Shown here in pieces: positions 1 to 12,556 of a stretch of DNA of 64,000 nt. This stretch comes from Methylobacterium oryzae. Its GTDB lineage: Bacteria > Pseudomonadota > Alphaproteobacteria > Rhizobiales > Beijerinckiaceae. Where the stretch lies: contig NZ_CP090350.1 of assembly GCF_021398735.1 (NCBI RefSeq), forward strand, positions 320,001 to 384,000, in the 5' to 3' direction. The notes beneath the pieces are model-generated. The model saw nothing but the letters and a program-made list of their open reading frames with translations, was not told the DNA's origin and ran no database searches. Both the position numbers and the translations under genes were made by a program. Every line of letters starts with the position of its first letter. Within the stretch, counting starts at the first letter, position 1.

Positions 1-223
1 GTCACCTTCTGTGATGGGCGTTCGATCGGCCGCAAGGCCATCCCGATCAGCCGAGAGATCGCGCGCAACCGCGAAGGCGGTTCCCCGCGTCGCGCGAGGG
101 CTGACTGATCCCGGACATCTGCCTGCTTCGTGCCTCTCCCGACCTGTCGGGCCGAACGCCTCGGCCACTCGTCGTTCGCCCGGCACCGACGACCGCGCTG
201 TGCCGAAGGCGCGGCCTTGAGGG

Positions 224-7438: not shown

Positions 7439-7765
7439 GTGTATGCCCATCAGCAACGCCTGGACTCCGAGGAGGTGCTGGAGCTGCGTCGGGAGGGGGG
7501 ACGGTATCTGAAGGAACTGCGGGAGGCGCGCGGCCTGTCGCAACGACAGCTCGCAGCTCTTGTCGGTGCGGATTACTACACCTTCATCTCGCAGCTGGAG
7601 ACCGGGCGCGGTCGTATTCCTCCGGATCGGTACCGCGCGTGGGCCGAGGCGCTGGCGATCGAGCCGAGAGCGTTCGTCCGGAACGTGATGCGCTTCTACG
7701 ACCCGATCACCCACGAGATCCTGTTCGGCGATCGGAGCGCGGAGTCTGAGGGCAACGAGGCGTAG
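7439..7765 (+). CDS. XRE-family helix-turn-helix regulator
   Basis: 108 residues. A Cro/CI-type helix-turn-helix occupies about residues 22-78 (LKELREARGLSQRQLAALVG, then FISQLETGRGRIPPDRYRAWAEAL). A short C-terminal tail follows (FVRNVMRFYDPITHEILFG). There is no ligand or peptidase domain, so it probably acts as a simple DNA-binding dimer. It is transcribed away from the secretion operon and towards the NepR-sigma gene. The CTGTACAG-like motif in its own promoter and in front of both sigma genes makes it the best local candidate for controlling this block, itself included. That link is inference. Confidence 0.85.
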   Translation: MYAHQQRLDSEEVLELRREGGRYLKELREARGLSQRQLAALVGADYYTFISQLETGRGRIPPDRYRAWAEALAIEPRAFVRNVMRFYDPITHEILFGDRSAESEGNEA

Positions 7766-8105: not shown

Positions 8106-8374
8106 CGACGCTGCCCAATAGATCCTCACTTGGCCGGCAACAGCCGCCCCGCCCACGCAGCTCTCAGTCTGACGGCGAACGCGCGCCTCTCGCCGACGTG
8201 ACTCGTTCACCTCGATCCGTTGTTCCTCGCTCGGCCTCAGACCACGTCGGGGTTCACCTGCGCGCGCGATGATCTTCGGCTCCTTCTCGGTTCAACATGT
8301 CCGCCCCCCAGGGACGGAAGCGTGCCCCAACGCGTAGGCCGCGGAGAACGATCCGCCGCTTGCGGGGTTAGATG

Positions 8375-8388
8375 TTCACTGTACAGTC
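8375..8388. promoter_or_regulatory. ACTGTACAGT palindrome before the NepR-sigma gene
   Basis: ACTGTACAGT at 8378-8387 is a perfect 10-bp palindrome, 37 bp before the proposed ATG at 8424. It matches the core of the site at 224-233, so it is a likely operator. Confidence 0.5.
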
Positions 8389-8423
8389 AGGTGGCGGGTC
8401 CTATCTGGAGGGGTGGACGCTCG

Positions 8424-9233
8424 ATGACGCGCGTGGTCGGGCCACTCCCGCCGGATGGCCCGCTGCAGATCGCCGGTTCGTCAGGCGGGATTCACGGCGG
8501 CCCGAGATCGGTTCGTGCGGCGAGCGCTTTGAGAGGACGTGAGTTGACGGACACGCTGGTTGCTCAAGACGGCGGAGTCGATCGGCCGAGCCGACAGGAC
8601 CCTCCGGAACCCGCGATTCTGCCCACCGGTGTGCGGGATCATCTCGGCCTGCAGCTGCGCGCCGCCTACGAGGCCGTGACACGGGCACAGACACCGCCGC
8701 GTCTGCTGGACCTCGTCGCGCGGCTCAATGCAGCGCTGGAGGGGCCGCGCCAGGACGATGCCACCGCGTTTCGCGAGGGCCTGACCGAAACGCTGCCCGG
8801 CCTGCGCGCCTTCGCCCTCTCGCTCGTCGGCGATGCCTCGCGCGCCGACGATCTGGTCCAAGAGACTGTGCTCCGAGCCTGGGCGCGCCAGGACCTGTTC
8901 ATCCCAGGTTCGAACCTGAAGGCGTGGCTCTGCACCATCCTGCGCAACCAGTTCTACACCGAGTGCCGCAAGCGAAAGCGCGAGATCGAGGACGTGAACG
9001 GTGCCGCCGCGGCGCAGCTCACGGCGCCCGCAGCCCAGGAGCACGGGTCCGATCTGCAGATCGTCTGGTCCCATATCGGCAAGCTGCCGGAACTGCAGCG
9101 TGAGGCCCTGCTCCTCGTGGGGGCCCAAGGCCTGACCTACGAGGCTGCCGCGGAGGTGATGGGCTGTCAGACCGGGACCGTGAAGAGCCGGGTGAGCCGC
9201 GCCCGGGCCTTGCTCGTCGCGCATCTCGCCTGA
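8424..9233 (+). CDS. NepR-like domain fused to an EcfG-type (general stress) sigma factor
   Basis: 269 residues from the ATG at 8424 (GGAGGG upstream). An in-frame TTG at 8544 with GAGAGGA before it is an alternative start, giving 230 residues. Residues ~70-105 match the NepR anti-sigma signature: LGLQLRAAYEAV, then P.RLLDLVARL. Residues ~114-185 are sigma region 2 (LPGLRAFALSLVGDASRADD, LVQETVLRAWARQD, LKAWLCTILRNQFY). Residues ~210-265 are region 4 (LPELQREALLLVGAQGLTYE, GTVKSRVSRARALL). NepR normally is a separate ~60-residue protein that sequesters EcfG until PhyR-P removes it. Here no stop or in-frame ATG separates the two, so they appear to be one chain. No phyR is in view. Confidence 0.85.
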   Translation: MTRVVGPLPPDGPLQIAGSSGGIHGGPRSVRAASALRGRELTDTLVAQDGGVDRPSRQDPPEPAILPTGVRDHLGLQLRAAYEAVTRAQTPPRLLDLVARLNAALEGPRQDDATAFREGLTETLPGLRAFALSLVGDASRADDLVQETVLRAWARQDLFIPGSNLKAWLCTILRNQFYTECRKRKREIEDVNGAAAAQLTAPAAQEHGSDLQIVWSHIGKLPELQREALLLVGAQGLTYEAAAEVMGCQTGTVKSRVSRARALLVAHLA

Positions 9234-12151: not shown

Positions 12152-12556
12152 ATGGCAGACGCCGTCGCGTCGCAACGCGCTGTGCTGATTGTCGAGGACA
12201 ATCCCGTGCAGCTCATGGATGCGGCTGCAGCCCTTCGCGACGCGGGATACGAGGTCGCGGAGGCCGCCACTGTCGAAGCCGCCCAGGCTCATCTGGCGGC
12301 CCGTCCCGAACTTGTGGCCATGGTCGCGGACGTGGACTTGGCAGGCGAGCCCTTGAGTGGCTTCACCCTGGCCAAAGCCGTCGCGGCGCGCTGGCCCGAA
12401 CTGGCGATCCTGATCGTGTCGGGTGTGGCTTGGCCCGCCGAGGAGCAGATGCCGATGGGCGCTCGCTACCTGCGCAAACCGTTCACACCGGAGGGGCTGG
12501 CCGGCGCGCTGGGGGCTGTGCTGGCGGCGCGGGGCGTAGGGTCCGTGCCGCATTGA
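12152..12556 (+). CDS. single-domain response regulator
   Basis: 134 residues, a receiver (CheY-like) domain with no output domain. Visible elements are VLIVEDNPVQLMDAAAALRD (acidic pocket), MVADVDLAG (phospho-acceptor Asp), ILIVSGVAW (Ser switch) and LRKPFTPEGL (conserved Lys). The ATG at 12152 follows GGAGATCCAGG. The frame is open upstream of it but reads as noncoding. Stand-alone receivers in alphaproteobacteria often act in phosphorelays or modulate histidine kinases. No kinase is adjacent, so the partner is unknown. Confidence 0.88.
   Translation: MADAVASQRAVLIVEDNPVQLMDAAAALRDAGYEVAEAATVEAAQAHLAARPELVAMVADVDLAGEPLSGFTLAKAVAARWPELAILIVSGVAWPAEEQMPMGARYLRKPFTPEGLAGALGAVLAARGVGSVPH

Follow-up and report, generated by a model that had tools for sequence, protein, structure and literature searches.

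Can an anti-sigma factor act in cis on a sigma factor and yet be opened by phosphorylated PhyR (PhyR-P)? The question is raised by a gene in the window, i.e., the whole stretch of 64,000 nucleotides analysed here, in which a NepR-like sequence and an EcfG sigma factor share one reading frame, and it can be tested directly in Methylobacterium, a harmless genus that is used in the laboratory. This gene is, with high confidence, an accessory plasmid-borne EcfG (ECF15) with the N-terminal extension typical of Methylobacterium, derived from NepR. The first-pass annotation was not aware of a description of such a fusion, but one has been published for the genus: passages of Francez-Charlot et al. 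2016 (PMC4814048) describe how the EcfG proteins of M. extorquens begin with a NepR-like extension some 55 residues long, limited to Methylobacteriaceae and suggested to stem from an ancient nepR-ecfG fusion, call its role unknown and credit its first mention to a 2009 PNAS paper. The fusion is real but already described, and the window gene adds a further accessory member to the family. Added here are a better-founded start, a picture of a single origin, a set of candidate residues and a likely route to the fusion via nepR and ecfG genes that lie in register with a stop between them.

A later test of the role of the extension was not found in the literature searched, which mostly comprised papers readable without subscription, and the passages on ECF extensions in the reviews PMC8103513 and PMC8999054 do not mention the NepR case. 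Passages of PMC8999054 describe IutY/ECF243 and ECF36, where inhibitor and sigma factor also form one chain, but where the inhibitor is not NepR. The closest known system is EcfG1-EcfG6 of M. extorquens AM1, described in passages of PMC4814048 with the same order of parts, an extension of the same kind and several paralogues. The window gene is a paralogue from another Methylobacterium and differs from these in lying on a plasmid next to repC and in having an upstream palindrome that is specific to its subgroup.

The frame from 8220 to 9233 on the forward strand is free of stops when read through, and it encodes, as first claimed, a NepR-like block and then a complete EcfG, both modules being matched. 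Translation from the ATG at 8424 gives 269 amino acids. Comparison of seven aligned copies (three of them near-identical; near-copy records L022, L126 and L127) points instead to the TTG at 8544 as the most likely start, giving 229 amino acids, because AGAGGA lies six bases before it, because the start codon is TTG in six copies and GTG in one, and because indels accumulate upstream. The motif GARAGGA before this start is kept in all seven copies. The ATG at 8424 was rejected, since in five of the six other copies the frame is broken by indels within the segment 8424-8543; the GC content of codon positions does not mark the start. The statement that neither a stop nor an in-frame ATG separates the two parts holds, but in-frame GTGs are present at 8631 and 8676, within the NepR-like block of the window copy. 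The features are collected in the table, with residues counted from TTG 8544.

Table. Features of the fused sigma factor gene and its upstream region (window coordinates)
Feature	Residues (of 229)	Position	Strand	Basis
Conserved upstream element GTTAGATGTTCACTGTACAGTCAG with 10-base palindrome		8367..8390	+	Upstream comparison
AGAGGA, likely ribosome-binding site		8532..8537	+	Read directly; 6 bases before TTG 8544
Fused NepR-like/EcfG sigma factor gene, most likely start, stop included		8544..9233	+	Frame, domains, conserved TTG/GTG start
NepR-like block	25-65	8616..8738	+	Pfam match at residues 32-63; profile comparison; PDB matches
Predicted helices in NepR-like block	28-46 and 52-64			AlphaFold
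Linker, poorly conserved, length nearly fixed	66-74	8739..8765	+	Alignment A1
Sigma region 2	75-146	8766..8981	+	Sigma70_r2 and PhyR_sigma2 over cut-off
Sigma region 4	171-229	9054..9230	+	Sigma70_r4_2 over cut-off

The sigma part is assigned to ECF15 by its possession of regions 2 and 4 without region 3, and by its nearest relatives, which are alphaproteobacterial EcfG/RpoE. Sigma70_r2 (55.9 bits), Sigma70_r4_2 (51.8) and PhyR_sigma2 (42.2) each score above their own cut-offs. The NCBIfam subfamily models score strongly but below theirs (NF009199, 186.8 against 219 bits), and among the 25 NCBIfam models listed only the ECF superfamily model passes its cut-off. In the PDB the best match of the sigma part (E 4e-42) is RpoE from the co-crystal with NepR of Bartonella quintana (5uxx), to which it is 48% identical over sigma 2-4 (Foldseek). 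RpoE and NepR of B. quintana are two separate proteins, whereas the window gene encodes one chain.

For the extension, the evidence for a relation to NepR is weaker in the single copy than in the family. The Pfam model NepR (PF18557) matches the 269-residue protein at residues 72-103 with 19.4 bits (E 8e-4), the N-terminal piece alone with 21.9 bits (E 1.4e-4), and the same gene with 23.7 bits in the genome search. These scores stay under the curated cut-off of 25.7, and the window copy is therefore termed NepR-like or NepR-derived rather than NepR. An EcfG1-type fusion in the same genome scores 37.7 bits with PF18557, above the cut-off, and the model matches at E<=0.01 in 72 of the 99 rows of an alignment, A1, which was built from 93 of 120 listed homologues, five paralogues of the genome and the window gene. 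When the 49-residue extension is compared with the PDB at E up to 10, it finds two distinct sequences, 2lfw_B (E 0.059) and 5uxx_B (E 1.1), and both are NepR; to the latter, the Bartonella chain, it aligns without gaps but weakly. When, further, the extension profile of the 99 rows is compared with a profile of 19 stand-alone NepR sequences, the two align ungapped over 42 columns with a probability of 98.3%, an E value of 1.6e-14 and a score of 60.5, while 20 column-shuffled controls and one reversed profile reach at most 10.6. Chance similarity was rejected on these grounds, since the PDB matches are solely to NepR and the profile score is far above the controls. By sequence comparison, then, the extension family is homologous to NepR in its two-helix core.

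Within the extension, the two-helix block forms an island of conservation. The mean majority fraction over the 99 rows is 0.69 in the NepR-like block, 0.45 in the N-terminal tail, 0.42 in the linker and about 0.8 in the sigma regions. Eight residues, H33, L34, G35, L38, Y42, P51, L57 and L61, are kept in at least 90% of the rows between variable flanks, and the spacing from L61 to F76 is 15 or 16 residues in 98 of the 99. For seven chosen pairs, which are not all independent because four genes supply five of them, dN/dS (NG86) is 0.12-0.61 in the NepR-like block, a noisy estimate over 42 codons, and 0.05-0.20 in the sigma part. By these values the block appears to be under purifying selection, weaker than that on the sigma part. 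One fused EcfG of the genome (L012, G000:C1:5003168-5003770) has a decayed block, with a partial PF18557 match of 16 positions and 16.4 bits. This gene sits on a very long branch (1.45) and is perhaps a fast-changing paralogue.

The window is part of a contig of 456,912 bases in a genome of 6.65 Mb. Some 1.1 kb downstream of the gene is repC, and on pMRAD01 of M. radiotolerans JCM 2831 the order is the same: a type I secretion ATPase, an HTH regulator, a small hypothetical gene, a sigma factor and repC. Because repC adjoins and this neighbourhood is annotated on pMRAD01, the contig is most likely a plasmid of a Methylobacterium. Of the PhyR/NepR partner switch that regulates EcfG sigma factors, the genome has phyR and a canonical nepR, but on a different contig (C1:1020880-1021560), so that the window gene is away from the phyR locus. 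About 3 kb downstream, at 12152-12556, the window has a single-domain response regulator (PF00072, 43.3 bits).

EcfG sigma factors characteristically recognise promoters of the form GGAAC-N16/17-CGTT. Upstream of the window gene there is no zero-mismatch occurrence of the EcfG-type promoter pattern GGAAC-N15/18-CGTT; in the whole window the pattern matches twice, with 1.25 matches expected by chance. An EcfG-type promoter is likewise lacking upstream of EcfG1-EcfG6, according to passages of PMC4814048. The 24-base conserved element found in this region is present with 0-5 mismatches in 11 of the 35 genes scanned (L021-L025, L027, L029, L034 and L126-L128), and the remaining 24 have 10 or more mismatches; L026, which belongs to the same subgroup as the window gene, is without it. 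Its 10-base palindrome, ACTGTACAGT, is intact in seven of the 11 genes with the element, and the genome has a single occurrence of the element's 15-base core. The element is possibly an operator or part of a promoter, and it is a candidate site for the neighbouring HTH regulator at 7439-7765.

The fusion is not peculiar to this plasmid, a possibility that was rejected when six fused EcfGs were found in one genome. The genome has seven full-length EcfGs, i.e., the six fused (L002, L007, L012, L013, L014 and L016) and one unfused (L017), and besides these two truncated ones, L019 (in the window) and L020. The second EcfG of the window, at 130-753, is truncated, with sigma region 2 present and region 4 missing. 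The same architecture is found in relatives, as a scan of genus genomes and of 30 fetched loci makes clear: all 30 loci are fused by eye, meaning that a NepR-like block, weak in some paralogues, was seen on reading. All 37 genus genomes in which EcfG matches were counted at E<=1e-20 have between four and 17 of them, fused and unfused counted together. The EcfG1-type fusion is present in 110 of 111 genus genomes (E<=6.4e-125, 81-100% identity), stop-free in every match listed; in the last genome, G245, the sole match is weaker (2.9e-73). In the order survey described below, two in-genus matches, G035:C25:9235 and G008:C1:3620202, contain one TGA each. Among the 120 fused sigma factors listed, at least three (P0032, P0033 and P0076; ncbi, nr) are labelled 'NepR family anti-sigma factor', a name that misleads and that derives from the N-terminal domain of a sigma factor.

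Outside the genus, an order survey of 199 genomes covered 195 genomes of other genera, three of them from the same family, and among the matches listed there was no fused EcfG, in the sense that every match reaching the NepR block past model position 53 had an internal stop. The sequences point to a fusion confined to Methylobacteriaceae with several paralogues per genome, in agreement with passages of PMC4814048.

How, then, may the fusion have arisen? Consider the unfused pair of the present genome and the operons of other Alphaproteobacteria in which nepR and ecfG are separate genes, which have the same two modules in the same order but, unlike the window gene, a stop and a start between them. 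In the unfused pair (C1:5904076-5904740, L017) nepR overlaps ecfG as ATGA. An unfused ecfG is found in all four genus genomes checked (incl. L101, L102 and L103), each time with a NepR match just upstream, whereas passages of PMC4814048 describe the EcfGs of M. extorquens AM1 as extended. In 13 of the 195 genomes of other genera (G201, G223, G141, G209, G221, G184, G140, G135, G144, G109, G066, G174 and G224), nepR and ecfG share a register that is interrupted by one or two stops according to the match table, the source of the call for G135, G109, G174 and G224; in the other nine the stop between the genes was seen on reading (L059-L067). In such a pair, loss of the stop would give the fusion.

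A tree of 56 sigma domains has a branch that separates the 37 fused rows from the others with moderate support (90/86, and 88% of bootstrap trees); three rows of the tree have long branches. Because the fused domains group together, a single origin of the fused sigma factors is favoured. The tree contains the rows that were readable by a motif filter; L028, L031-L033, L035, L046, L050, L055 and L066, as well as L101, L103 and L107-L111, were left out. These loci were read by eye save L108-L111, and L055, a nepR alone, was used in the profile comparison. Alignment A2 consists of the window gene, 36 rows taken from loci and 87 of the homologues listed (120 in all). The extension most likely derives from a single ancient event that fused neighbouring nepR and ecfG genes and could easily have come about by loss of the nepR stop, and the fused paralogues most likely duplicated and spread thereafter.

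We now return to what the extension does. In the first-pass reading the extension would inhibit in cis and be opened by PhyR-P or by proteolysis; inhibition in cis is a plausible hypothesis. Our preferred reading, a tentative one, places the extension on the NepR site of the sigma factor that carries it, where it would exclude free NepR and inhibit mildly until displaced by core polymerase or PhyR-P. In steps, the two NepR helices would lie on the sigma domains of their own chain where free NepR binds; docked there, they would deny free NepR access and inhibit the sigma factor weakly; and release would come from the RNA polymerase core, or from phosphorylated PhyR catching the helices. The placement on the NepR site fits a result in passages of PMC4814048, by which EcfG1 binds NepR in vitro solely when its extension is removed.

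Two observations stand against this scheme. The first concerns the closed state itself, which is not predicted by AlphaFold: neither of two models, of the window chain (pTM 0.49) and of the EcfG1-type chain (pTM 0.46), both low, docks the extension confidently on its own sigma part. The modelled arrangements are far from the NepR-bound sigma factor of 5uxx (whole-chain rmsd 19 Å for the window chain and 16 Å for the EcfG1-type chain) and nearer to most ECF sigma factors bound to RNA polymerase (about 8.4-16 Å), a loose contrast since the EcfG1-type model is 12.2 Å from AlgU with MucA, an anti-sigma-bound chain. At this confidence the models neither establish nor exclude docking in cis. The matches from Foldseek and VIA-align are to the sigma part and are near-silent on the extension; a missing NepR row in the VIA list is no counter-evidence. 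The second observation concerns inhibition: in passages of PMC4814048, pull-downs show interaction with NepR for full-length EcfG1 and for its isoform that lacks 14 residues, and EcfG2 appears constitutively active in spite of its extension. Both isoforms also complement a sextuple mutant (PMC4814048, same passages).

It is rather unlikely, but deserves attention, that the extension blocks free NepR without inhibiting, which would leave the paralogues immune to NepR and either constitutive or controlled by synthesis or stability. The two-hybrid data in passages of PMC4814048 are in line with this, since NepR was bound by no full-length M. extorquens EcfG and only by extension-less EcfG1 and, weakly, extension-less EcfG5; so are the apparent constitutivity of EcfG2, the control of EcfG3 at the protein level (PMC4814048, same passages), and the palindrome that stands upstream of the window gene in place of a GGAAC-N15/18-CGTT match. 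Yet such protection would be needless for EcfG2, 3, 4 and 6, the truncated forms of which also failed to bind NepR in the two-hybrid passages of PMC4814048, and binding to the NepR site without inhibition would require an effect different from that of NepR.

We consider it improbable that the extension mainly binds PhyR rather than its own sigma part, in order to recruit PhyR or to compete with NepR as a feedback. Two stand-alone NepR paralogues of M. extorquens do bind PhyR with no sigma partner found (passages of PMC4814048), and NepR-like pieces are also attached to a receiver domain and a hybrid kinase of this genome, but binding of PhyR by any extension was not found in the literature searched. 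About as improbable is a relic, in which the extension would do nothing for regulation and merely leave folding unharmed: the weaker constraint on the extension than on the sigma part and the decay of the motif in some paralogues, such as L012, would suit it, but the eight residues retained across the rows of A1 and a dN/dS below 1 in seven of the seven pairs do not. An artefact has practically negligible probability, be it a stop lost by sequencing error or a start after the NepR block that yields a plain EcfG, for although RefSeq gives 200 residues on pMRAD01 and pNYY1_1, from the GTG equivalent to 8631 (residue 30), and 229 on pNMS14P1, the shorter version retains nearly all of both predicted helices, the window copy has no ATG, GTG or TTG between residue 46 and sigma region 2, and an open fusion of this kind in every orthologue read, including those on three named plasmids, makes a lost stop unlikely.

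Occupation of the sigma factor's own NepR site, with release by PhyR-P, would be one instance of a more general idea, to which we assign a low probability: that the two-helix NepR core is a portable, PhyR-responsive switch piece in Methylobacterium, used as a sigma lid, in NepR-REC proteins and as the tail of an HK-REC-REC-NepR protein. If true, PhyR-P would act on all NepR-bearing chains and would simultaneously open sigma factors and exert feedback on signalling proteins. Papers on NepR-REC or HK-REC-REC-NepR proteins were not found in the literature searched.

Two further chains of this kind occur in the genome. In the first (L004, G000:C1:1495878-1495979, reverse strand), NepR (27.7 bits, above cut-off) is followed in one frame by a lone receiver domain (REC, 45.0 bits); it has 528 homologues at E<=1e-10, and among the 120 listed the named organisms are Methylobacterium, the usual label being 'response regulator'. 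The second is a hybrid histidine kinase, HK-REC-REC, ending in an in-frame NepR-like tail (L005, G000:C1:2601457-2601558), which scores 28.5 bits with PF18557 in the genome search and 24.0, below cut-off, for the protein. Eight fetched kinase tails (L118-L125) show the motif IGRxLRxxYA...P.....QGLI fully or almost fully, and PF18557 matches four of the eight at E<=0.01, each below cut-off. Of 111 genus genomes, 79 have near full-length relatives of the last 156 residues of the kinase, with matches at E<=4.7e-54 that run to residue 148 or beyond.
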